Source of the DNA: Halolamina pelagica
GTDB lineage: Archaea > Halobacteriota > Halobacteria > Halobacteriales > Haloferacaceae
Reading direction: 5' to 3'
Length of the DNA stretch: 64,000 nt
Assembly: GCF_900115675.1 (NCBI RefSeq)
Contig: NZ_FOXI01000006.1
Coordinates: forward strand, 62,001-126,000
Shown: positions 20,656 through 53,696 of the stretch, piece after piece
Numbering within the stretch: position 1 is the stretch's first letter
How the letters are laid out: every line of letters begins with the position of its first letter
Notes under the pieces: generated by a model
Databases searched by the model: none
What the model was told of the DNA's origin: nothing
The model's input: the letters and a program-made list of their open reading frames with translations, nothing else
Translations under genes and position numbers: made by a program

Positions 20656-20719
20656 GTCGGTGTCGGCGCCCTCGCCCGGTATCGAACCCACTAAGGCGAG
20701 TCCGGGCAAGCAACGTACA

Positions 20720-21679
20720 ATGAGTCTCACGCTCGGCGACGCCAGCGCGGCCCCCGGCGAGATGGCCACCGGGCGGCTCCGGATTGGCGAGCGCCGCGAC
20801 GGCAGTCCCGTCTCCCTACCGGTCTGTGTGGTCAACGGCGCCGACGACGGCGAAACCCTGTATCTGCAGGCGGTCTCGGACGGCGACGAGCTCAACGGCC
20901 TCGGGGTGCTCACCCGGGTCGTCCCGCGGCTCGATCCCGCCGAACTCTCCGGCGCGGTCCTGATCGTCGGGATCGTCAACGTCCACGCGTTCCAGATCGC
21001 CGAGCACCGCAACCCCATCGACGACACGAAGATGAACCGGGCCTACCCCGGCGACGAGGACGGGACCAGCTCCGAGCGCATCGCCGCCGCGACGTTCGAC
21101 GCCGCCTGCCGGGCTGACTACGTGCTCGACCTCCACCAGGGCTCGACCTCGCGGATGCTCAACGAGGCCCGGGTACGGTGTGGCCGCCACCATCGCCTCC
21201 ACGGCGACTGCCTCGAACTCGCGAAGGCGTTCGGCACGGGCCACGTGCTCGACCAGAAGGGGCCCGACGGCCAGTTGGCCCGCGCGGCGCCCGGCGAGGG
21301 GATCCCCACGATCGACCCCGAACTCGGCGGCTGCGTGGGCTGGGACGAGGAGAGCATCCAGTACGGCGTCGAGGGCGTTTTCAACGTCCTCCGCCACTAC
21401 GGCTTCCTCGACGGCGAGGCGTCGATGGACGAACAGACCCGCGCCGCGGGGTTCGACCAGTACCGCGCGCCGGCGGGCGGGCTCGTCCGGTTCCGCGCGG
21501 AACTGGGCGAGGAGATCCATCCCGGCGACACGCTGTTCGAGATCACCGACCCGTTCGGCCAGCTCGCGGGCCGGGTGACCGCCGACTGCGAGGGCGTCTT
21601 CTGGCGCTCGCGGCGGCTCCCGCAGGTCGCGACCGGCGAGTACGTCTGCTCGGTGGCGACCGGCGTCGACGCCTACTGA
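20720..21679 (+). CDS. succinylglutamate desuccinylase/aspartoacylase family protein with altered zinc site
   Basis: A 319-residue protein of the M14 AstE/AspA deacylase family. In this family zinc is held by an HxxE motif (HGDE) and a later His. Here the first motif reads AVSDGDELNG (near residues 54-63), with Asp where the His is expected. The third ligand DLHQG (near 138) and the catalytic Glu region PELGG are kept. A beta-rich C-terminal domain follows. A paralog at 40494-41567 keeps the normal HGDE. Two bp separate it from the threonine synthase gene, so they are probably co-transcribed. Confidence 0.85.
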   Translation: MSLTLGDASAAPGEMATGRLRIGERRDGSPVSLPVCVVNGADDGETLYLQAVSDGDELNGLGVLTRVVPRLDPAELSGAVLIVGIVNVHAFQIAEHRNPIDDTKMNRAYPGDEDGTSSERIAAATFDAACRADYVLDLHQGSTSRMLNEARVRCGRHHRLHGDCLELAKAFGTGHVLDQKGPDGQLARAAPGEGIPTIDPELGGCVGWDEESIQYGVEGVFNVLRHYGFLDGEASMDEQTRAAGFDQYRAPAGGLVRFRAELGEEIHPGDTLFEITDPFGQLAGRVTADCEGVFWRSRRLPQVATGEYVCSVATGVDAY

Positions 21680-21681
21680 CG

Positions 21682-22806
21682 ATGACTGACCCCACCCCAC
21701 TCGTCTGTCCCGACTGCGGCGCCGAGTACGCGGATCGCTGGCGCTGTACCTGCGGCCACCCCCTCGAGTTCGCCCGCCAGCCGCTCCCGGACGGGCCAGC
21801 ACCCGACCCTGCCGCCTTCGACGCCCGCGAGGGGCTGTGGGCGTTCTCGGCGTTCCTCCCCGTCGAGAAACGGGTCAGCCTCGGCGAGGGGATGACGCCG
21901 CTCCAGCACGCGCCCGACTGGGACGCCGAGTTCAAACTGGAGTACGTGTTCCCCACCGGCTCGTTCAAGGACCGCGGCGCGACGACGACGCTCTCCCGGG
22001 CGCTGGAACTCGGCGTCGAGAAAGTGGTCGAGGACTCCTCGGGCAACGCCGGCGCGGCGGTCGCGACCTACGCCGCCCGGGCGGGGATCGACGCCGAGAT
22101 ATACGTGCCGGCGAGCGTAAAGCAGAGCAAAATTCGAGCGATCGAGGCTGCGGGCGCGACGCCGGTCCGCATCGAGGGCTCGCGACAGGACGTGACCGAC
22201 GCGTGCATCGACGCCGCGGTCGGCGAGGGCGCCGACGAAGGTGCGACCGGCGACGGTCGGCCGGGCGCCGGCGCCTGGTACGCCTCCCACGCCTGGAACC
22301 CCGCCTTCTTCGCCGGCACGGCGACGTTCGCCTACGAGACCGCGCTCCAGCGTAACTGGGCGGCGCCCGATGCCGTCGTGACGCCGCTGGGTCACGGGAC
22401 GCTGTTCCTCGGCGCCTACCGAGGGTTCCGCGCCCTGAAAGAAGCGGGCTGGATCGACGAGGTCCCGCGAATGTACGGCGCGCAGGCCGCGGGCTACGCC
22501 CCTATCGCCGCGGAACTCCACGGCGACACTGCTGGCGCGAACGACGTGGCCGACGGGATCCAGATCCGCGATCCGGTGCAGAAAGACGCGATTCTGAATG
22601 CCATCGAGGCCACCGGCGGCGACGCCATCGCGCTCACGGAGGCGCCGGTCGCCGACGAACTCGATCGACTCCACGCGGCCGGCTTCTACACGGAACCCAC
22701 GTGTGCGGTCGCGCCCGCGGCGCTCGACGAGTACCGCGAGCGCGGTGCCGTCGACGCCGACGAGGACGTGGTCGTCCCGCTGACTGGGAGCGGGCTGAAG
22801 GCGTAG
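21682..22806 (+). CDS. thrC: threonine synthase (PLP-dependent)
   Basis: A 374-residue fold-type II PLP enzyme that converts O-phosphohomoserine to threonine. The N-terminus is a zinc-ribbon-like segment (VCPDCGAEY, WRCTCG), common in archaeal threonine synthases. The PLP lysine is in FPTGSFKDRGATTT (near residue 97), with VEDSSGNAGAAVA following, and the family Gly-rich phosphate loop lies in VTPLGHGTLFLG. An acidic Gly-rich insert lies near residues 182-193. Other fold-II enzymes share these motifs, so the exact substrate is likely but not certain. It directly follows the AstE-like gene. Confidence 0.85.
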   Translation: MTDPTPLVCPDCGAEYADRWRCTCGHPLEFARQPLPDGPAPDPAAFDAREGLWAFSAFLPVEKRVSLGEGMTPLQHAPDWDAEFKLEYVFPTGSFKDRGATTTLSRALELGVEKVVEDSSGNAGAAVATYAARAGIDAEIYVPASVKQSKIRAIEAAGATPVRIEGSRQDVTDACIDAAVGEGADEGATGDGRPGAGAWYASHAWNPAFFAGTATFAYETALQRNWAAPDAVVTPLGHGTLFLGAYRGFRALKEAGWIDEVPRMYGAQAAGYAPIAAELHGDTAGANDVADGIQIRDPVQKDAILNAIEATGGDAIALTEAPVADELDRLHAAGFYTEPTCAVAPAALDEYRERGAVDADEDVVVPLTGSGLKA

Positions 22807-22944
22807 CGGTCCGAACTGTTTTCCCCGCGGCCTACGACGGGCGCGCCTCGCTGCCCCACGACCGGGAGACAATGGCGCGGGCGCTGGACCGCTTCTGACT
22901 ACGCCGGGAGGCCCACCGCCTGGCCCGAATCAGGGCGGCGAAGC

Positions 22945-22968
22945 GAGCACTGGAGGGCGGGAGTGCTC
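22945..22968. repeat. 7-bp inverted repeat between convergent genes
   Basis: GAGCACT (22945-22951) pairs with AGTGCTC (22962-22968) across a G-rich 10-nt loop. It overlaps the stop of the opposite-strand gene and follows the threonine synthase end by 138 bp, so it may serve as a terminator. Confidence 0.45.
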
Positions 22969-24304
22969 ACTCGGTGCGTGCGTTCCCGTTCAGGACGTAG
23001 TGCGCCGTGTCACTCCGGAACTCCATGCGGAACGACTGTGGCTCGTTCTGCTGGATATCGTCGAACGTCCACACCTCGAACTCGGTCCCGATGAAGTCGT
23101 CGGGGTTGACGATGCCGAACAGGTCGAACCTGTCGAGGGTCCTCTTCTTCACAGTATCAGTGACCTTCCCCTTGATGTTGTCGGCGATGTCGTTGCCGTC
23201 CTGTTCGGTGAACTCGATCTCGTCGTTCGAACTGTTCTCGGCGACCTGTTCCGCGACCTCCCTCACCTTCTCCTCTATCTCGGATTTGAGTTCGGTTCGT
23301 AGTTTTCGATACCCCGCCTCCACGGCTTGCGTGCTGGTGTTGTCTTGTTCAAGCAGGACCACGATGAGGGCGGCACGTGCCACCGACTTCGGGTCGGCGT
23401 CCGTCTGCGCCCCCGATGCGATCGCCGGTATCACCGGGGACATCCGGTCTCGGAACGTCCCCGTTTCGTCCGGCACGGGGAAGCTGTCCCCGCCGTGGAC
23501 GTTTCCTTGCCCCAGGTTCCCGTGGGTCCCGTGTCGACCACCTCCCCGAAGCCTCGCCCCGGCGGCGTCGTAGTTGTTGTTGAGGTACGCCTCCACGACG
23601 TCGATGGACCGACCGTCGACGAACAGGGCAAGTGCGAGAACGTACGGCTCGTCCCCATCCGGGGCGAAGAGCCTGTCCTCCTCGTCGGAGTCCCGACAGT
23701 CTACCCGCGACAGTTCCAGCGTCACCGGCATCGTCCCCGTCTCCATGGGTGTGTCCGTCTCCAGCTGGGACTCGATCTTGGGGTCGACCCACGCTGCCCA
23801 GTCCTGGGTCGACCGTCCCGCGGCGTCGACGCGCAGTTCGAGGAACACGTCCTCGCCCGAGAGGTGGGTCAGGTCGGCCTTCACATCCAACAGTTCTCCG
23901 GTGTACCCCTTCTGGCGGCGGAGAACCGGGTTCCACACGTGAGTGCCGTTCTCCCGGTGGTGTTCGAACACCCAAAACTCGGCGCCGTCGCTCGCGCTCG
24001 CGCCGTCGAGGAACCCGATCTGGGCGGTGAAGACGGCGTTGTCGGGCGCCGTGACCCACGGGAAGAATCCCTTGATCGTTCCGTCCGGGACCCACTTGGG
24101 GTGGGTCCTGAGCGCCGATTTCGAGGACCCGTTCTCCATGGTCACGGTGTCGAGACGGGCGAACCCTCGGTCGTCGCCCGCGCTCCCGTTCCACGGGATC
24201 TCGTTGCTGTCGCGAGTGTTGTGGTCGTCTACGAGCTGTCCCGTCACCCAGCGCGCTCCGTCAGCCGTGTTCGTGAGATCTATGGCCATTTTCGGCTCCG
24301 ACAT
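22967..24304 (-). CDS. orphan protein of unknown function (two putative beta domains)
   Basis: A 445-residue soluble protein with no signal peptide or membrane segment. Residues about 10-180 look like a beta-sandwich (GFFPWVTAPDNAVFTAQIGF, AEFWVFEHH, FLELRVDAAG, WAAWVDPKI), recalling NPCBM or jelly-roll carbohydrate-binding domains. Residues about 190-445 contain DCRDSDEEDRLF with GDEPYVLALALFVDG, a conserved Gly/His-rich loop, a charged helix (ELKSEIEEKVREVAEQVAE) and DDFIGTEFEVWTFDDI. The DEPYV and DDxIGT pattern resembles a domain of unknown function that I recall from bacterial proteins. No catalytic motif is seen. AT-rich DNA upstream suggests acquisition. ATG 24289 is an alternative start. 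Confidence 0.7.
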   Translation of the reverse strand: MSEPKMAIDLTNTADGARWVTGQLVDDHNTRDSNEIPWNGSAGDDRGFARLDTVTMENGSSKSALRTHPKWVPDGTIKGFFPWVTAPDNAVFTAQIGFLDGASASDGAEFWVFEHHRENGTHVWNPVLRRQKGYTGELLDVKADLTHLSGEDVFLELRVDAAGRSTQDWAAWVDPKIESQLETDTPMETGTMPVTLELSRVDCRDSDEEDRLFAPDGDEPYVLALALFVDGRSIDVVEAYLNNNYDAAGARLRGGGRHGTHGNLGQGNVHGGDSFPVPDETGTFRDRMSPVIPAIASGAQTDADPKSVARAALIVVLLEQDNTSTQAVEAGYRKLRTELKSEIEEKVREVAEQVAENSSNDEIEFTEQDGNDIADNIKGKVTDTVKKRTLDRFDLFGIVNPDDFIGTEFEVWTFDDIQQNEPQSFRMEFRSDTAHYVLNGNARTE

Positions 24305-24308
24305 GTCG
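24299..24308. promoter_or_regulatory. CGACATGTCG palindrome at the orphan gene start
   Basis: A perfect 10-bp palindrome overlaps the ATG at 24304. An identical copy lies at 24351-24360, 52 bp upstream of it relative to the gene. A pair like this could be an operator, but the match may be by chance. Confidence 0.3.
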
Positions 24309-24350
24309 ACTGACCAGTGTTTCTCCCGTTCCGCCGTATCGAACCATCGC

Positions 24351-24360
24351 CGACATGTCG
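24351..24360. promoter_or_regulatory. second CGACATGTCG palindrome
   Basis: Identical to the palindrome at 24299-24308. It borders the AT-rich segment 24361-24445, which probably holds the promoter of the orphan gene. Confidence 0.3.
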
Positions 24361-24445
24361 TCAGTAAATATAATATTTATAATGTAATAATCTTTCGCTA
24401 TACATATCTATAGAGTAATTTCACACGTAGTTATATAACGTGTCT
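24361..24445. other. AT-rich island upstream of the orphan gene
   Basis: About 85 bp rich in A and T (TAATATTTATAATGTAATAA and similar), unlike the surrounding GC-rich DNA. No gene is seen. It offers several TATA-like boxes for the minus-strand orphan gene and looks foreign to the local composition. Confidence 0.6.
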
Positions 24446-24469
24446 GCTAAGTCGAGCCCCGATACGCGC

Positions 24470-24484
24470 CGTGGTTTCACCACG
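24470..24484. repeat. TTC/GAA-triloop hairpin
   Basis: CGTGGT-TTC-ACCACG is a perfect 6-bp stem; the minus strand carries a GAA loop, here closed by T-A rather than C-G. It lies between the orphan gene and the end of tiaS. Confidence 0.5.
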
Positions 24485-24564
24485 CCTGTCGAGACCGATC
24501 ACCGTGGGGACTTCGACGGTGCACGTTCGGGGACCACACCGGACGACCGACACCGGCCCAGTAC

Positions 24565-25845
24565 CTACCGTTCCGGATGCGTCGGCGCGTCGAACCCCCC
24601 GCGAACGAGCGGCTTCGCGACGTGCCGGCGGGCACACGGCGGCACCTCGTACCAGCCGCGTTCGAGCGCTCGGTCAACCTCGACCTCGACTTTCCCGGGC
24701 GCGCTCGTCCCGCAGTCCCGGCAGCGGTACCCCTGATCCCGGCCTGCCGAACTCATCCGGTTCCCGCAGTCCGGGCACGTCGGGGTGGTCAGCGTCGTCC
24801 GGGTCAGCGCGCGGACGGCGAACTTCTCGAGCTTGAGCGTCCCGTCGCTCACCTCCCCGCAGACGGTGAGTTCGTCGCCCGTACGCAGCGCGCGCACGCG
24901 GTCGCGGAAGCGCTTGGTCGGCTCGAACGCCGCGGCCGCGATGGGGTCGCCGTATCCGCCCCGAATCGGGACGAACACGTGGCCGCCCGCCCGCGTTTCG
25001 GGCTCGCCGGCGACGACGCAGTCGACGCGGTAGGCACGGCCGTCGTCGAGCGTCGTGAGGTCGTCGACAGCGGCGTCGCTGAGGTGGGCGTCGGTCCCCT
25101 GATTCGTCCGGAACAGCGCGGTCCGTTCGACCGGCTCGGAGTCGATTTTCGCAACCATCCCCCTGAGGGCGTCGGGGTCGTCGCCCCGGAGGCCGTAGAG
25201 GATCGGGCCGGGCGCGCTGGGCACGCAGACCGCCTCGTCCTCGGCGCGGTCGACGGTGTCCCACGCGTCGGGGTAGGCGTCGTCGGCCGCGGTGAACAGG
25301 CTCGCGTCGTCGACTTCTCGGGGGGTTCCACAGCGCTCGAACTCCCGGTAGGCGATCAGTTCGTACGTCCACTCGGCGAACGCGCGGTGGGCGCCGACGG
25401 CCGCGAGCGCGCCGATGCGGCCGTGGCCGCCCGCCCAGCCCGCGGCCTCGAAGCCGGCGTCGGCGGCCAGTTCCAGCGCGGCGTCGAGGTCGTGGAACTC
25501 CCGGACGGCGTCGCGGGCGAACTGGGCGACCGAGTCGATAATCTCGTCGGGGTCGCAGTCGGCGACGACCAGTCCCGGCGACGTCCGGGGGTCGTCGGTC
25601 TCGGCCAGCGGTCCGAGTTCGTCGCGGGCGATGGCGCCGGCGCGGTCGGCGTCGAGGTCGGTGTGGATCGCGAGCGCGGCGTTCCCGCGGGTCTTGCGCT
25701 CGACTGCGGGGTTCAGGCGGACCAGCAGTCGCTCGTCGATCGACCCGCCCGCGGCCGCGATCCGCTCCGCGATCCGGGCCGCGAGGTAGGTCGTGCACAT
25801 CCCGCGCTGGCGGGAGTCGGTGTCGTCGACGCCGATGACGGTCAC
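24565..25845 (-). CDS. tiaS: tRNA(Ile2) 2-agmatinylcytidine synthase
   Basis: A 426-residue ATP-dependent enzyme that attaches agmatine to C34 of tRNA-Ile(CAU) so that it reads AUA. The N-terminus VIGVDDTDSRQRGMCTTYLA is the kinase-like catalytic signature. A ferredoxin-like part with AAGWAGGHGRIGALAAVGAH follows, then an OB-like segment (VCGEVSDGTLKLEKFAV) and a C-terminal zinc ribbon (CPDCGNRM, CRDCG near residues 368-387). The GTG at 25845 was chosen because the signature then begins at residue 3, as in the family; upstream in-frame sequence is Pro/Arg-rich. Confidence 0.93.
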   Translation of the reverse strand: MTVIGVDDTDSRQRGMCTTYLAARIAERIAAAGGSIDERLLVRLNPAVERKTRGNAALAIHTDLDADRAGAIARDELGPLAETDDPRTSPGLVVADCDPDEIIDSVAQFARDAVREFHDLDAALELAADAGFEAAGWAGGHGRIGALAAVGAHRAFAEWTYELIAYREFERCGTPREVDDASLFTAADDAYPDAWDTVDRAEDEAVCVPSAPGPILYGLRGDDPDALRGMVAKIDSEPVERTALFRTNQGTDAHLSDAAVDDLTTLDDGRAYRVDCVVAGEPETRAGGHVFVPIRGGYGDPIAAAAFEPTKRFRDRVRALRTGDELTVCGEVSDGTLKLEKFAVRALTRTTLTTPTCPDCGNRMSSAGRDQGYRCRDCGTSAPGKVEVEVDRALERGWYEVPPCARRHVAKPLVRGGFDAPTHPER

Positions 25846-25960
25846 GGCAGGAGGGAGGCGGTCGCCGGCCAAGGGGGTTTCGCGTCGGAGCCCGGGAGTC
25901 GGCTCGGTCGGGCGTTCGGGCAGTGAATCGACAGATAGCGGCGGGATAGGTGGACACAAC

Positions 25961-25970
25961 GCATATATGC
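25961..25970 (+). promoter_or_regulatory. TATA box of the HTH regulator gene
   Basis: GCATATATGC, a self-complementary TATA element, lies 23-32 nt before the ATG at 25993. This is the classic spacing of a leaderless haloarchaeal promoter. Confidence 0.65.
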
Positions 25971-25992
25971 CGCGAGTCGCCTACATCCCTGT

Positions 25993-26973
25993 ATGAGCCG
26001 TACAGCGCTGATCGAGAACGTTACGGCGATGCTGCAGGACGCCGGGTTCCTCGTCAGCGAGCGCTGTGCGATCCGCCCAAAGAGCTTCGACGTGGCCGCG
26101 CGCCGCGGCGAGGAGCTCGTACTGCTGAAAGTGCTGGGCAACGTCGACGCCTTCGACGCCGCGACCGGGCGGGAGATGCGCCGCCTCGGCGAGTACCTCT
26201 CGGCGACGCCGATGGTCGTGGGGATGCGGACCCGCGACGAGGAGCTCAAGCCCGAGGTGGTGTACTTCCGCCACGGCGTACCCGCGATCCACCCCGACAC
26301 CGCGTTCGACCTGTTCGTCGAGGACGTGCCGCCGCTGATCTACGCCGCCCCCGGCGGGCTCTACGTCAACATCGACGGCGACCTGCTCTCGGAGACCCGC
26401 GAGCAGCAGGACTGGAGCCTCGGGAAGCTCGCCTCGGAGCTCGGCGTCTCCCGGCGCACCGTCTCGAAGTACGAGGACGGGATGAACGCCTCCATCGACG
26501 TGGCGGTGAAGTTGGAGGAGCTGTTCGACCGCCCGTTCACGGCGCCAATGGACGTGATGGAGGGCGCCGAGGAGGTCCGGGACGCCGAACCCACCCCGGA
26601 CCCGCCGGAGGCCGATCCCGACGACGAGCACGTCGTCGGCGTCCTGACGCGGGCGGGGTTCACCGTCCACCCGACGATCCGGGCGCCGTTCAACAGCGTC
26701 TCCGAGGACGAGGAGCGCCGCGGCCGCGACGGCGCGAAACTGTTGACCGGCCACTCGGAGTTCACCCCCAGTGCCGAGAAGCGCGCCCGGATCATGTCCT
26801 CGCTCGGGCAGGTCACCCAGACGCGCTCGGTGTACTTCGTCGAGGACAACGCCAGACGCGAGTCGGTCAAGGGGACCGCGCTGGTGTCGTGTGAGGAGTT
26901 GGCCGAGACCGACGACCCCGAGGCGGTGCGGGACCTGATCCGCGAGCGCGCGGCCGAGCCCGGCGAAGCCTGA
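25993..26973 (+). CDS. archaeal HTH-type transcriptional regulator
   Basis: A 326-residue protein of the conserved archaeal putative HTH regulator family (COG1395 type). The N-terminal part ([24 protein letters not shown]...FDVAARR...LLKVLGN) resembles a restriction-endonuclease-like fold. A central XRE/Cro-type [26 protein letters not shown], spans about residues 140-162. The C-terminal part is [23 protein letters not shown], a repeat of the N-terminal type. Targets are unknown. It stands alone with its own TATA box. Confidence 0.88.
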
Positions 26974-27010
26974 TCGGTCGAGCCGTCGCCGCCGGTTTTC
27001 CCGAAGTCGA

Positions 27011-27268
27011 CTACGCCGCGCCGTCCCCGTAGGTCTCCTCCAGGTAGGCGACGATGTCGCTGCTCTCGGGCATCCCCTCGACGCCGTGGTCCTCGTCGAC
27101 GAGCACGGGAACGCCCGTCTGGCCCGAGACCTCCTGTACCTCGGTTCGCTCGCTGTGGGCCGACGGGACTTCGATCGTGTCGTACTCGAGCCCGAGTTCG
27201 TCCAGCTTGTCGGCGGCCTTGATACAGAACGGACAGCCCGGCAGTTCGTAGAGCGTGATGTTCGCCAT
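27011..27268 (-). CDS. glutaredoxin-like thiol protein
   Basis: An 85-residue thioredoxin-fold protein. The redox motif is CPFC at residues 12-15, the cis-Pro is in TGVPVLVDED (near 51-60), and ESSDIVAYLEE is near the C-terminus, as in NrdH/glutaredoxin-type proteins. It is likely to reduce disulfides using small thiols; in haloarchaea gamma-glutamylcysteine rather than glutathione is the main thiol. Confidence 0.93.
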   Translation of the reverse strand: MANITLYELPGCPFCIKAADKLDELGLEYDTIEVPSAHSERTEVQEVSGQTGVPVLVDEDHGVEGMPESSDIVAYLEETYGDGAA

Positions 27269-27344
27269 TACCTACGGTTGGGGGCTGACACTCAAAAACG
27301 CCGCGGCGCCGGCGAGCACGCCGGCTATCTCGGACGACGGGCTG

Positions 27345-28751
27345 TCACAGTCGGCCCGCCCGCTCGCGCAGCGACCGGACGCCGTCGGCGATGCGGGCGC
27401 GCTCGCGGAACCCCTCCGCGACGCCCCAGCCAACCAGCAACAGGGCGGCGCCGACGACGCCGGCGAACTCCCAGGAGCCCAACCAGGCCGGCTGGAACCA
27501 CGGGACGAGTCGGCCCCACAGCCCCGCGAACTCGGTGACCGGTCCCTCGACGGCCGTCCCCTGCGCGCTCGCGGCGAGCCACGAGGAGAACGTCGCCGAG
27601 AGCCCGCCGGCGGAGCCGTAGACGGCCGTGTGACCGCTCACGCCCAGGTCACGCATCGTCGGCCCGTTCGACTCGTCGCCGGTGCCGATGCGCTCGGCGT
27701 CGTAGGGCGCCCACGTGGCGAAGTACTCCCAGACGATCTCGCCCTCCGGGGTGATCTCGATGACGCGGTGGTTCATCGAGTCGACGATCATCGTGTTCCC
27801 GTTGGGCAGGCGGTCCGCGTCGCGGGGCCAGGAGAGCGACGCCGAGGAGCCGGCGCTCCAGACGTGCTCCCACTCGCCGTCGTCGTTCTTCGTGTACTCG
27901 ATCACGCGGTCGTTCTCGCTGTCGGCGACCAGGATCGTCGGGTCGCCGTCCTCGGTCGTGAGCCAGTCGGGGTTGTGCTGTTCGTACAGCGTCGAGTGGT
28001 CGCCGTCCTCGCCGAGGCGTTCGGTGATCTCCTTGGTGGTGATGTTGACGGCGATCACCTGATCGAAGTTCCGGGGCGAGAGCAGCAGTTCCTCGCCGTC
28101 CCGGATCACCTCGACGTCGTTGACGTGGGTCCAGTCCTTCGCGAACCCGCCGTCCGTGCCGTTGGGGTAGTGGTTGCGGAACGTCCACTCCCAGTCGACC
28201 TCGCCCTCGGTGCGGTCGTACAGCACCACGCGGTCGTTCGAGCACTCGCAGGACTCGTTCCACTGCCGCATGTTGGCGATCGCGAGGTGCGTCTCGTTGT
28301 ACACGTCGATGTCGTGGGTGTCGTGGTACGGCAGCGTCTCCTGCCAGACGCGCTCGCGGTTGTCCCGGTTGAGTTCGTAGACGGTCGTCCCGTCGGGGTT
28401 GGTCGAGACGACGAGCAGGTTCCCGTTGGGCAGCGGATCCACGTCGTAGAACCACCGCGCGCCGAGGGCGTCCTCGTACACCCAGTTGGTGGTGCCGTTG
28501 CCGTCGGCCGAGACGACGCGGGCGGGCTTCTTGCGGTTGCCCTGTCCCTGGAAGTGGTAGCCCTGGATCCCGACGATCGTGGCGTTGTCGGCGGGCTGGT
28601 CGATCGTCCCGGGGCCGAGTTCGCTCGGCGAGTCCGCCGAGTCGCCGCCGACGCCGAGAGCGGCGCCCGCCGCGGGCGCCAACAGCGAGAGGACGAGCAG
28701 GAGGGCCACCCCGCGGACCAGCCAGCGCCGGGGTGGCAGACTGCGTTGCAT
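27345..28751 (-). CDS. secreted, membrane-anchored arylsulfotransferase-like beta-propeller protein
   Basis: A 468-residue protein. Residues 1-35 form a signal sequence (basic start, then VALLLVLSLLAPAAGAAL). The central 350 residues are repeats with WFYDVDPLPNGNLLVVST, HDIDVYNETHLAIANM, WTHVNDVEVI, NPDWLT and RDADRLPNGNTMIVDSMNHRVIEI, typical of arylsulfotransferase-type six-bladed propellers. The C-terminus has a membrane segment (FAGVVGAALLLVGWGVAEG) and a basic cytoplasmic tail, so the propeller faces outside. Enzymatic activity is unproven, and many archaeal members have no known substrate. ATG 28751 begins the signal sequence. Confidence 0.85.
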   Translation of the reverse strand: MQRSLPPRRWLVRGVALLLVLSLLAPAAGAALGVGGDSADSPSELGPGTIDQPADNATIVGIQGYHFQGQGNRKKPARVVSADGNGTTNWVYEDALGARWFYDVDPLPNGNLLVVSTNPDGTTVYELNRDNRERVWQETLPYHDTHDIDVYNETHLAIANMRQWNESCECSNDRVVLYDRTEGEVDWEWTFRNHYPNGTDGGFAKDWTHVNDVEVIRDGEELLLSPRNFDQVIAVNITTKEITERLGEDGDHSTLYEQHNPDWLTTEDGDPTILVADSENDRVIEYTKNDDGEWEHVWSAGSSASLSWPRDADRLPNGNTMIVDSMNHRVIEITPEGEIVWEYFATWAPYDAERIGTGDESNGPTMRDLGVSGHTAVYGSAGGLSATFSSWLAASAQGTAVEGPVTEFAGLWGRLVPWFQPAWLGSWEFAGVVGAALLLVGWGVAEGFRERARIADGVRSLRERAGRL

Positions 28752-28798
28752 GGTCGCGAAAACGGCGGGGAGCGGGAAGGTGTTGCGGTCGCGGGCGA

Positions 28799-30226
28799 CT
28801 ACATCACGCCGCTGGTCCGCACCGCGAAGTAGACCACGAACGCGCCCGCGAGGATCCACTGGCCGACGTGGATGTCGTCCAACTCGCCCGCGGCGAGTTT
28901 CACGACCGGGTAGGAGACGATGCCGGCGGCGATCCCGTAGGCGATCGAGAACGTGAAGGGCATCACCATGATCGTCATCCCCGCCGGGATCGCGTAGGTG
29001 AGGTCGTCCCACGCGACCTCGACGGCGTTACCGAGCATCACGACGCCGATGACTACCAGCGCGATGTGGGAGGCGTACTCCGGGATCGCGGCCGCAAGCG
29101 GGACGAACAGAAGCGAGAGCAGGAACAGGCCGGCGACGGTCAGCGCCGTCAGGCCGGTGCGGCCGCCCTCCTCGACGCCGGTCGCGGACTCGATGTACGT
29201 CGTCACCGTCGAGGTGCCGAGCATCCCGCCGACGGTGGTGCCGACCGCGTCGGCCATCAGCGGCTTGTCGATGTCCGGGAGGTTCCCTTCATCGTCGAGA
29301 AAGCCCGCGGACTGGCCGACGCCGACCAGCGTGCCGGCGGTGTCGAAGAAGTCGACGAAGAAGAACGTGAACACGATCAGCGCGAACGTGAACGCGTCGA
29401 CGTTCGCGAACCCCTCGAGGAACGCGCCCGCCAGCGGCCGGATGTCGTAGGCCGCGAGGCTGTAGGTCGTCGTCGACCCGGTGAGGAAGATGTTCGTCGC
29501 GATGGCGGCGCCGCCGGGCACGTTCTCGGGGTTGTACGCGGTGTAGCCGAGCGCCGCGGCGACGTAGCCGGCGACGGTCGTCCCGAGGATGCCGATGACG
29601 ATCGAACCGCGGATCCCGCGGGCGTACAGCCCGAACGTGAACAGCAGGCCGGCGACCGAGATCAGCGCGACCGGGTCGTTCGCGACCACCGGCGAGAGCG
29701 TCAGGAACGTCGCCGGATCGCTCGCGACGACCCGCATCGACTCGAAGCCGATCAGCGCGAGGAACAGGCCGATCCCGGAGCCGACAGCGAGTTTGACCGG
29801 TTCGGGGAAGAGCCGGATCACGTACTCCCGCGCGCCGACGGCGGTGAGCGCGATGAAGATGATCCCCTCGACGACCACGGCCGCGAGCGCGGTCTGCCAG
29901 GGGACGCCCATCCCGAGGACGACCGTGAACGCGAAGAAGGCGTTCAGCCCGAGCCCCGGCGCCTGCGCGAACGGCCGGTTGGCGTACAGCGCCATCACCA
30001 GCGTCGCGGTCGCCGCGGAGATGATCGTGACCACGGCGAGCATCGCGACGAGGCGACCCTGCCCGACCCCCTCGATGTCGATCGCCGCCGCGAGGATCGC
30101 GGGGTTGACGACCACGATGTAGCTCATGGTCAAGAACGTGGTCAACCCCGCCAGGAGTTCGGTCCTGACGGTGGTGTCGTGGCTATCCAGGTCGAAGTAG
30201 TCGGCCAGCGTCTCTGTGAGACCCAT
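28799..30226 (-). CDS. NCS2/AzgA-type purine permease
   Basis: A 475-residue transporter with about 12-14 membrane segments. The AzgA-like start is LDSHDTTVRTELLAGLTTFLTMSYIVVVNP (residues about 14-43), followed by FAQAPGLGLNAFFAF and VDFFDTAGTLVGVG, the conserved NCS2 substrate and proton-coupling motifs. It probably imports adenine, guanine or hypoxanthine. It lies downstream of gfcR on the same strand with a 153-bp gap. A 17-bp box shared with the gfcR promoter occurs in that gap. ATG 30226 was preferred to an upstream start that would read through this box. Confidence 0.93.
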   Translation of the reverse strand: MGLTETLADYFDLDSHDTTVRTELLAGLTTFLTMSYIVVVNPAILAAAIDIEGVGQGRLVAMLAVVTIISAATATLVMALYANRPFAQAPGLGLNAFFAFTVVLGMGVPWQTALAAVVVEGIIFIALTAVGAREYVIRLFPEPVKLAVGSGIGLFLALIGFESMRVVASDPATFLTLSPVVANDPVALISVAGLLFTFGLYARGIRGSIVIGILGTTVAGYVAAALGYTAYNPENVPGGAAIATNIFLTGSTTTYSLAAYDIRPLAGAFLEGFANVDAFTFALIVFTFFFVDFFDTAGTLVGVGQSAGFLDDEGNLPDIDKPLMADAVGTTVGGMLGTSTVTTYIESATGVEEGGRTGLTALTVAGLFLLSLLFVPLAAAIPEYASHIALVVIGVVMLGNAVEVAWDDLTYAIPAGMTIMVMPFTFSIAYGIAAGIVSYPVVKLAAGELDDIHVGQWILAGAFVVYFAVRTSGVM

Positions 30227-30278
30227 CCGTATGGGTGCATATCGCGACGGTGGTGTACTTGAGGCTTTCCGTACGGTA

Positions 30279-30295
30279 TGCACAAATACGCCCAC
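30279..30295 (-). promoter_or_regulatory. shared 17-bp box upstream of the purine permease
   Basis: On the plus strand the site reads TGCACAAATACGCCCAC and matches the gfcR-upstream site (31115-31131) as TGCACAARTAYGMMCAC. It lies 53-69 nt before the permease ATG. Shared boxes suggest one regulator, possibly GfcR itself. Confidence 0.5.
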
Positions 30296-30379
30296 ACGTG
30301 CCGGTTGAGTGGCCGATCTACGGGCCTATTCGGAACGAGTATGCACGAAGGTGGGTTTCGAGGCGGCCGTCGAGCGACG

Positions 30380-31099
30380 CTACCGGTCGTCGAACGTCGT
30401 CAGCGCGCCGACGGGGGCGTCGGTGATCTGGCGGGCGCGGTCCATCCCCTCGTCGCCGACGGCGATGAGGGTGAACACGCCGCCGACGGTCGCGTCGGAC
30501 TGGGCGACGATGTCGAGCAGGAGCTCCTGGGTCTCGCCCGAGCGGATCAGGTCGTCGACGACCAGCACCGTGTCGCCGGCGGAGACGGCGTCGGCGGGGA
30601 GGTAGTAGGTGAGCTCGATGCCGGAGGCGAGCCGCTGGCGGGACTCGACGAACTCCTCGACCGCGGTCTCCTTGCGCTTCTTGGCGTAGGCGATGTCGGC
30701 GTCGAAGTAGGAGGCCATCGCGGCGCCGAGCGTGATCCCGTCGGTCGCGGCGGTCAGCACCACGTCCGGGCGCTCGAACGCGAACGACTCGGCGGCGACG
30801 GGCGCGACGAGGTCCAGGAAGGACTGGTCGAACACGATCGCGCTGTTGTCGACGTACCCCTCGTCGTCGACGCTGACTCGGGACCGGAGCTCGTCGGCGA
30901 GTTCCTCGCGGCCGATGCTCTCGACGGTCTCGCGGGCGCGTTCGACGCCCGGGAGCACGTGGCCGTTGACGTAGCGGTTCAGGTCGCCCGCCGGCAGTCC
31001 GGTGAGTTCGGCGAGTTCGTCGTACGTTCGACTGCGCTTCAGCGTCCGCAACACGGCGACGGCCCGTAGCTGGAGGGCCGCCTTCTCTGCACGGTTCAT
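30380..31099 (-). CDS. gfcR: GfcR-like regulator (HTH + phosphoribosyltransferase domain)
   Basis: A 239-residue protein. Residues about 15-45 form an HTH (VLRTLKRSRTYDELAELTGLPAGDLNRYVNG). The rest is a type I phosphoribosyltransferase domain with the PRPP loop VLVVDDLIRSGET near residues 184-196. Haloferax GfcR, of this family, activates sugar-degradation genes. Here the gene sits between pyrE and a purine permease, and a box is shared by its own promoter and the permease's, so control of nucleobase uptake is a plausible additional role (inference). ATG 31099 was chosen; an upstream in-frame start adds four residues. Confidence 0.88.
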   Translation of the reverse strand: MNRAEKAALQLRAVAVLRTLKRSRTYDELAELTGLPAGDLNRYVNGHVLPGVERARETVESIGREELADELRSRVSVDDEGYVDNSAIVFDQSFLDLVAPVAAESFAFERPDVVLTAATDGITLGAAMASYFDADIAYAKKRKETAVEEFVESRQRLASGIELTYYLPADAVSAGDTVLVVDDLIRSGETQELLLDIVAQSDATVGGVFTLIAVGDEGMDRARQITDAPVGALTTFDDR

Positions 31100-52292: not shown

Positions 52293-53696
52293 ATGAGGCG
52301 CCGACGTTTCCTCCGTCACGGGGTCATTGCCGGAGTCACCGTCTCCATCGCCGGCTGTAACACAAAGACGGGTACGCCAGACGGCGAGTCGGATACATCG
52401 ACGCCCGGGGCTGACGAAACACCGGAGGACACCGCTACATCTGCAGAACAGACACCTTCGGAAGGTGAACAGCAGCCCAGCGAAGATTCCGAACCAGCGG
52501 CACGGTACTTTTTCGAGGACGAAACCGGGGCACTCGGCCACCTCGCAGACGACGAAGTACCCCAAAACTACGACCACAGCATAACCAACTCTGCTACAGA
52601 GTCCGAATACCGGGAGATGCAGAGAAACGACCGCCAGTACCCGGAAGGACTGGAAGACGGACAGTTGACGATGACCGTCGACGAAATGATCTCCCGCGCC
52701 GAAGAGATCTACAACAACCCCGAAGAAAACATAGACACATTAGGATACGAAGACCTGAACTTCGCTGAGGAAGACGACGAAATAGTATTCACCCGGGCAT
52801 TGATCAAAGCATCACAGGAAGCAGGAGTGGCCAGCTCGGGACTGGCAAATATTGTCGTAGCAAACATCGCAGAAGACGCCGTCGACCAGATCCAACCCGG
52901 CTTCACTGATTTCAAACTATCAACTCTACCAGCAACTGAACCGATAGCACCCGGAAGACAGGGACACAGCGGAGGCGTAAGAGAGAATGACTTCAATCAG
53001 AGCTTCGGGAACTCCGGCTTTAGACATATGGCTGCCCTGCTCCAGTACGAGAAAGATGGAGAAACAGAACTCAAATACGCCGAACAAACTAACTCAGTAA
53101 ACGTAAATACATTTAGAAGAGTAATCAGGGATCCAGAGTTCTCGCTCTACCGCTCAAGCCTAGAACAAGATACTGTAGACAATGCAAGAGACTCAGAGCC
53201 TGGAGACGAGGGAACAATGTTCCCAGAACACTACGTCACAGCACTCGACTACACCAAAGCAAGAGAGCTAGAGAGTTCCGATGATAACATTCTTGGGTTC
53301 GGAGAAAACAAAAGCGGAACTCTTCTAGCTGTTGGAGATGAAATAGATGCAGTTTTGATGCAACTAGTAGATGATATGGGCGTCACAGGATACAATAATA
53401 ACGAAGACCTAGATCTTGAGAGTGCTAGACCTGATTGGGGAGGTACAGTAGTATCAGATGAATTTGGGGAAAGCCTAGAAGGGTATATCACTAGCCCAAC
53501 TAATAAGGAAAGACAATATCTAGAAAATATAGGAAGAGGACTATTCCAAATTAGAAACCAAGTGGGTATGAATGCCTCAATTGCGCTAACTGGTACGTTA
53601 GAAGATCCTGAAATTCTGCCTACAGATCAAGAGACAGTGAATGCAGTAAGACAGGATCAAGCATACGATCAGGTTCGAAAAAGAGTCCTCGCGTAG
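52293..53696 (+). CDS. Tat-exported lipoprotein, element cargo, unknown function
   Basis: A 467-residue protein. MRRRRFLRHGVIAGVTVSIAGC is a twin-arginine signal with lipobox SIAGC (Cys22), so it should be exported folded and lipid-anchored outside the cell. Residues 23-70 are a Thr/Glu/Ser-rich linker typical of haloarchaeal lipoproteins. The rest is an acidic globular domain with no motif I recognise. Base composition is GC-rich at the start and AT-rich from about 53000 on, suggesting a native-type signal joined to a foreign domain or recent transfer. A surface role such as exclusion of related elements or viruses is a guess. Confidence 0.85.
   Translation: MRRRRFLRHGVIAGVTVSIAGCNTKTGTPDGESDTSTPGADETPEDTATSAEQTPSEGEQQPSEDSEPAARYFFEDETGALGHLADDEVPQNYDHSITNSATESEYREMQRNDRQYPEGLEDGQLTMTVDEMISRAEEIYNNPEENIDTLGYEDLNFAEEDDEIVFTRALIKASQEAGVASSGLANIVVANIAEDAVDQIQPGFTDFKLSTLPATEPIAPGRQGHSGGVRENDFNQSFGNSGFRHMAALLQYEKDGETELKYAEQTNSVNVNTFRRVIRDPEFSLYRSSLEQDTVDNARDSEPGDEGTMFPEHYVTALDYTKARELESSDDNILGFGENKSGTLLAVGDEIDAVLMQLVDDMGVTGYNNNEDLDLESARPDWGGTVVSDEFGESLEGYITSPTNKERQYLENIGRGLFQIRNQVGMNASIALTGTLEDPEILPTDQETVNAVRQDQAYDQVRKRVLA

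Follow-up and report, generated by a model that had tools for sequence, protein, structure and literature searches.

CBM51/NPCBM domains are the described systems closest to the protein studied here, and they are found in glycosidases and peptidases, as in the GH95 of C. perfringens (CBM51, 2vmg) and in ZmpB (CBM51-2, 7jrl/7js4). The Pfam family PF08305 is listed as CBM51 (PMC3267712). NPCBM is described as an intracellular lectin-fold domain that senses invaders in bacterial conflict systems (PMC8195603), and in such systems trypsin-like peptidases are stated to have Trypco1 as a neighbour (PMC7159879).

The locus described here lies in a 64,000-nucleotide stretch of the haloarchaeon Halolamina pelagica, which we call the window. 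The N-terminal domain of its product (N-domain) is predicted to be the same sandwich as in the CBM51 structures above (Z 13.7-14.2, rmsd 2.5-3.0, 132-139 residues), but its identity to CBM51 is 14-17%, its profile score lies below the Pfam cut-off, and it sits in a cytosolic-looking two-domain protein and not in a glycosidase or peptidase. A homologous domain is shared with bacterial proteins of two kinds. Chloroflexota proteins carry it after N_BRCA1_IG (FW)-like domains, in a secreted- or lipid-anchored-looking setting without the C-terminal domain (C-domain), whereas the haloarchaeal copy has neither an FW domain nor a signal. In Streptomyces sp. NBC_00158 and S. afghaniensis it is part of a probably cytosolic protein, as in the haloarchaeal copy; the haloarchaeal gene, however, is not flanked by STAND, trypsin or Trypco1 genes and encodes an extra C-domain. 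In our judgement there is about an even chance that the locus is a single-gene accessory cassette, passed on by horizontal exchange, whose product is a cytosolic ligand-recognition protein.

The gene and its product

The gene (22967..24304, minus strand) encodes an acidic protein of 445 residues if translated from 24304, with a pI of 4.5, 18.2% D+E and 9.7% K+R, and carries the DEPYV (residues 218-222; 23639..23653, minus strand) and DDFIG (residues 402-406; 23087..23101, minus strand) motifs, just as the sequence-only reading had it. Acidity is common in haloarchaeal proteins. The GC content of the gene is 0.638, against 0.68-0.73 in eight other genes compared. It is likely that translation starts at M6 (24289), giving a product of 440 residues, because the M6 ATG follows a GGAG Shine-Dalgarno-like motif by 6 nt and lies close to the start of the conserved domain (family positions D9/L10 in a comparison of 44 domains).

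The gene had also been described as standing alone, and this agrees with its surroundings: thrC (threonine synthase-like; 21682..22806, plus strand) converges on it from the left, and a tiaS-like gene (24565..25959, minus strand), on the same strand, ends 260 bp upstream with an AT-rich island between. Both flanking genes, named by reading their sequences, are present in 7/7 genomes of the genus. No match above chance was obtained for the whole protein in Pfam, NCBIfam, PHROGs or PADLOC (0 families in the last), which upholds its orphan status, and neither sequence nor profile searches of the PDB gave a match for the protein or its domains. Matches to DUF6918, GreA_GreB_N and PRK11565 (E 0.018-0.09) lay on or beside the helical stretch of the C-domain and were taken as compositional. 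Rfam gave 0 matches in 22700-24700. The division into two parts was likewise recovered, as an N-domain of residues 1-185 and a C-domain of residues 186-445.

The protein was found in two genomes, this one and another member of the genus (G004, 98% identical), with one copy per carrier genome. This amounts to 2/147 relatives and 2/170 genomes of the family, and a search of 391 genomes of the class found no full-length copy beyond the two carriers. At E<=1, 63 of the 391 class genomes gave a match, and the 61 besides the two full-length copies were short, many with internal stops, and were judged to be chance; 28 of the 61 were re-aligned (L003-L030) and one (L014) was read fully, its match being antisense to another gene. 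With a profile of three N-domains at E<=0.01, 3/392 phylum genomes were retrieved, namely the two carriers and a weak partial match in a distantly related genome from the phylum (G681; locus L035, E 0.0019, in an 815-aa open frame). The relative, family, class and phylum samples overlap. The suggestion that the domain is new to archaea is consistent with the genomes sampled (2/170 in the family and 2 strong matches among 392 in the phylum), and a uniform presence in haloarchaea was not seen, the carriers being those 2 of the 170 family genomes.

The N-terminal domain and its bacterial relatives

Alignments, an AlphaFold2 model and VIA-align together point to a beta-sandwich with a CBM51/NPCBM-like fold in residues 1-185 (23750..24304, minus strand). 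The model, made from nine N-domain sequences, is nearly all beta (pLDDT 83.3, pTM 0.82). The best VIA-align matches were CBM51 domains (7js4, Z 14.2, rmsd 2.5, 135 residues aligned; 7jrl/7jrm, 14.2; 2vmg/2vmh/2vmi, 13.7), and the first eight rows by Z (13.3-14.2) comprised seven CBM51 entries and one Akkermansia enzyme (8pvs), followed by meprin MAM at Z 13.2. The order in Foldseek was different, with the EphA7 ligand-binding domain (8.5e-6) before CBM22 (3.7e-5) and CBM51 (7jrl, 4.4e-5). The predicted model thus has the CBM51-type beta-sandwich according to VIA-align, with neighbouring folds close to it, and the jelly-roll-like N-terminus proposed earlier is recovered as a sandwich with a carbohydrate-binding-module-like fold by AlphaFold2, Foldseek and VIA-align. 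MAM, Eph-receptor, CBM22 and CBM61 folds score nearly equal to CBM51, and the ligand may therefore be a protein. Foldseek also matched viral tail-fibre and minor-tail beta-sandwiches (E 1e-5 to 1e-4), and with 1743 matches at E<=10 these were put down to the commonness of the fold.

In the profile comparison, PF08305 reached 13.9 bits (E 0.056) over residues 92-177 of the N-domain, ending at DWAAWVDPKI, against a Pfam NPCBM cut-off of 23.9 bits; the weak match was present in 1/16 family members scanned, and the genome search with PF08305 gave no match at this locus. The predicted fold is therefore nearest to CBM51/NPCBM and membership of Pfam NPCBM is not reached. The carbohydrate-related role suggested from the sequence is partly supported, with the CBM51-like predicted fold in its favour and the score below the NPCBM cut-off against it.

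A tblastn search of 72,556 plasmid records gave two significant matches, to residues 4-177 and 8-173 of the protein, one in Chloroflexota (CP069395.1, 5e-6) and one in Streptomyces sp. NBC_00158 (5e-5), and a back-search of the plasmids with a Chloroflexota domain as the query returned only the same two records. A profile of the three N-domains led to six genome loci, five in Chloroflexota and one in Streptomyces afghaniensis. At E<=0.001 the domain was present in 29/301 Chloroflexota genomes, often several times in each (best E 3e-21), and nearly all of these matches cover residues 26-217. The identity of the window N-domain is 24-38% to the Chloroflexota relatives across the entire domain and 32-33% to those of NBC_00158 and S. 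afghaniensis. Twelve positions conserved over 44 domains are present in the window sequence as well (A17, W19, G40, G47, E57, P69, G75, G136, L145, G150, D168 and W172), and the homology to the Chloroflexota and Streptomyces domains is full-length with shared conserved positions. By its sequence, the N-domain belongs to an unnamed bacterial domain family of Chloroflexota and Streptomyces; in a FastTree phylogeny it forms a long branch beside the main Chloroflexota group, with a local support of 0.99, although midpoint rooting of short domains is weak. When 16 members of the family were scanned against Pfam, none scored above a curated cut-off. Viral contigs searched with the three-sequence alignment and with a Chloroflexota domain as the query gave nothing.

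The settings of the domain in the two bacterial groups are distinct. In Chloroflexota it mostly follows a lipobox-like start, in one protein (L032) it comes after an N_BRCA1_IG domain (Pfam, 4.4e-22), and other Chloroflexota proteins look similar to this one by eye, some with two copies of the N-domain or with other Ig-like parts. This secreted context with an FW-like domain is typical only of the Chloroflexota branch; in the window protein neither a signal nor any further known domain is present. In Streptomyces NBC_00158 the N-domain is encoded by a separate gene 4 nt after an 1833-aa nSTAND1-WD40 gene annotated as trypsin-like, which is itself preceded by a Trypco1 gene (3.3e-17), and S. 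afghaniensis has the same gene order, a STAND-WD40 reading and then the N-domain, although the draft sequence is broken in frame there. At both Streptomyces loci (L103, 7541-14151; L040, 457-6495) the STAND-WD40 gene is thus paired with a stand-alone N-domain protein without a Pfam family.

The C-terminal domain

The C-domain (residues 186-445; 22970..23749, minus strand) is an orphan without Pfam, NCBIfam, PHROG, PADLOC or PDB relatives or genome matches, and resembles C2 only in its motifs. These run in the order DEPYV...LLEQDN...DDFIG, and DxPYV-like and DDFIG-like motifs in that order are signatures of C2 domains, here reminiscent of C2 loops split by a helical insertion. Single-sequence AlphaFold2 of the whole protein gave a pLDDT mostly <50, with low-confidence helices at 325-356 and 367-387 within a predicted long-helix stretch between the two motifs (about residues 323-400; 23105..23338, minus strand). 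Our guess from the sequence would be a C2-like sandwich with a helical insertion: the motifs stand in the right order for C2 (PF00168), but the profile did not match the C-domain, either entire or after removal of the helical stretch. A PF00168 search of the genus genomes found 0/7 at E<=10, and no catalytic motif was recognised in the C-domain.

The sequence-only reading had linked this C-terminal pattern to uncharacterised bacterial proteins, and searches of plasmids, phages and viral contigs, together with 198 Actinomycetota and 301 Chloroflexota genomes, yielded no such relatives. The sole plasmid match in tblastn (E=8) was antisense to a VOC gene, phages gave chance matches only, and viral contigs gave none with either peptide patterns or a degenerate DNA pattern. 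Three matches at E<=0.01 in the 198 Actinomycetota genomes were judged to be chance from their translations, and three at E 0.1-1 in the S. afghaniensis genome, one of which was read, were taken in the same way. The 301 Chloroflexota genomes had none apart from a single match in G1223 (residues 138-275), which is interrupted by three internal stops, and the five Chloroflexota genomes carrying the N-domain had none.

Insertion site and exchange of the cassette

The empty-site comparison, blastn of six relatives and the contrast in identity delimit an inserted cassette (22903..24568) between the stop of a Nudix gene and the stop of tiaS. In blastn of the window against the six other genus members, segment 22832-24565 was found in G004 only, and inside it the other five gave a single match, a 74% stretch of Nudix tail (22823-22902) in G006. 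All six (G004, G003, G006, G001, G005 and G002; L067-L072) have 1-3 Zn-ribbon Nudix-type genes between thrC and tiaS by ORF reading, and in G003, G005, G006 and G002 the last of these extends to the tiaS stop. At the empty site of G006 the stops of the Nudix gene and of tiaS lie directly against each other (TTCTGACTACCGCTCCGGATG), and at the filled site of the window genome this junction is split as TTCTGACTAC...GTACCTACCGTTCC. The junction is also split in G004, where the right copy reads TTCCTACC, and the CTAC repeat is therefore present in that genome too. G004 retains intact Nudix genes; the window genome has lost them except for a 3' remnant of the Zn-ribbon Nudix-type gene that is intact in relatives (22830..22898, plus strand).

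The two copies of the 4-bp direct repeat CTAC (22899..22902 and 24565..24568) may have arisen as a target-site duplication or may be microhomology by chance. Neither a transposase or integrase nor a terminal inverted repeat was seen in the cassette, there is no tRNA near the insertion, and the cassette DNA had no match among the plasmids searched. G001 has a different 316-aa ORF at this Nudix-tiaS junction (L070, 6056-7006); its start is pilin-like and hydrophobic, and its VYFDDIRFYD-type end is reminiscent of jelly-roll carbohydrate-binding domains. The junction may accept various cargo genes. The junction of gene 20660-21679 with thrC (window 21664-21682), where G003 and G001 have extra DNA of about 1.1 kb (L068, L070) and G006 of 0.3 kb (L069), looks like a second variable spot.

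We observed a sharp difference in the divergence of the cassette and its flanks. Between the two carriers, 1614/1660 aligned bases are identical inside 22903-24564 (97.2%), whereas the identity falls at the cassette edges and is 88.9% in 24569-26974, 87.9% in thrC, 87.6% in 27012-30609 and 88.5% in 20660-21679. Similarly, 13/225 four-fold sites are changed in the orphan gene (0.058), against 0.21-0.50 in seven neighbouring genes, among them tiaS with 58/242 in a protein-guided alignment. The cassette was therefore exchanged far more recently than the flanks diverged; it may have moved through homologous recombination, or the same site may have received it twice. The codons of the orphan gene differ at 29 positions, 19 synonymous and 10 not, which suggests purifying selection on the gene. 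A glutaredoxin-like gene in the window (27011-27268) is unusually divergent between the two genomes, with 74% amino-acid identity and 16/32 four-fold sites changed.

The upstream region

The AT-rich island upstream of the gene (24331..24460; core 24360-24440, GC 0.23) is the promoter region. In the whole 64 kb only one other stretch, at 53451-53580, also contains an 80-nt window of GC <=0.36. The island contains a TATA-like box TTATAAATA (24374..24382, minus strand), whose role we infer from its sequence. The palindrome CGACATGTCG is present twice in the 64 kb, both times here, against 0.16 expected, and two copies were reached in 1/100 shuffles; of the 104 loci compared, 9 have it, each of them a copy of this locus from one of the two carriers. 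P1 (24299..24308) overlaps the first ATG and is just 5' of the GGAG, six bases and ATG of M6, and with a start at M6 it would thus be leader DNA and not coding DNA. P2 (24351..24360) is 52 bp from P1 and close to where, judging by the TATA-like box, transcription should begin. On the coding strand the order is TATA-like box, P2, P1, GGAG, six bases and the M6 ATG, and P1 and P2 are probably paired operators of the promoter, P2 lying close to the start of transcription and P1 directly ahead of the ribosome-binding site. The sequence-only reading had noted foreign-looking upstream DNA and two identical palindromes; the AT-rich island and the palindromes are both present, and the palindromes appear to fit a promoter operator pair better than a mark of foreign DNA. 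A promoter and terminator scan gave no sigma-70-like promoter, and terminator-like sites at chance level. Sigma-70-like sites are not expected in archaea.

Possible function

If the gene is an accessory, exchanged cassette for cytosolic ligand recognition, the N-domain would bind a carbohydrate, glycoconjugate or protein ligand via a face of its sandwich, and the binding would be passed on to the C-domain, which would carry the response. The C-domain could be a C2-like sandwich with its helical insertion in a loop between the DEPYV and DDFIG ends, and in that case calcium-dependent binding of a membrane or protein would be the most natural guess for the response. A regulator sitting on the GACATGTC palindrome pair might hold transcription and release it on demand.

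Among the alternatives, a one-gene defence cassette, in which the CBM51-like N-domain senses a glycosylated or invader-specific intracellular molecule and the orphan C-domain is the effector, seems possible but rather unlikely. The invader-sensing role described for NPCBM (PMC8195603) and the Streptomyces N-domain genes, which lie 4 nt after or overlap STAND-WD40 genes, with Trypco1 in one, in a setting linked with conflict systems (PMC7159879), argue for it together with the patchy presence and recent exchange. However, patchiness is by itself no proof of defence, PADLOC found 0 families, the C-domain has no recognised catalytic motif, and no NTPase, protease, nuclease, TIR or other effector was recognised beside the gene; by ORF reading no STAND NTPase, effector or Trypco neighbour was recognised in the window, such neighbours being present only at the Streptomyces loci. 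A more specific proposal, a promoter-controlled archaeal immune cassette of one gene, in which a cytosolic CBM51-like sensor of invader molecules is fused to a new effector domain and which passes between species of haloarchaea at a single fixed position in the chromosome, has a slimmer chance.

We consider it improbable that the gene encodes a surface or secreted carbohydrate-binding envelope protein. Such a role agrees with the signal or lipobox-like N-termini and FW or Ig-like domains of the Chloroflexota relatives and with fold matches that are mostly to secreted lectin-like modules. Yet neither a signal peptide nor a Tat motif nor a membrane stretch is present in the window protein (near its N-terminus the highest Kyte-Doolittle mean over 19 residues is 0.19), from which it follows that the protein probably stays inside the cell; its N-domain begins right after M6, and by inspection the Streptomyces copies also lack a signal peptide. 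The envelope-related role of the sequence-only reading is thus not supported, there being no hydrophobic N-terminal signal (0.19), although the Chloroflexota relatives look secreted. It is equally improbable that the gene is the passenger of a non-autonomous mobile element without a host role, as the precise insertion, the CTAC repeats at both ends, the sharp identity boundaries in two species and the AT-rich promoter would allow, but the lack of a visible transposase or integrase and of terminal inverted repeats within the cassette, the single copy in each carrier genome, the intact frame and the selection suggested by 19 synonymous against 10 nonsynonymous codon changes argue against it.

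The results link a haloarchaeal gene without annotation to a domain family that has no name and is not covered by Pfam among the 16 members scanned, one that spans secreted-looking Chloroflexota proteins and neighbours of Streptomyces trypsin-STAND genes. Because empty and filled versions of the site can be matched within one genus, and the exchange is very recent, the locus is a clean case in which to study the movement of single-gene cassettes among haloarchaeal species. In case the ligand is recognised inside the cell, the gene would offer a simple, genetically tractable test of lectin-fold domains as intracellular sensors in archaea.
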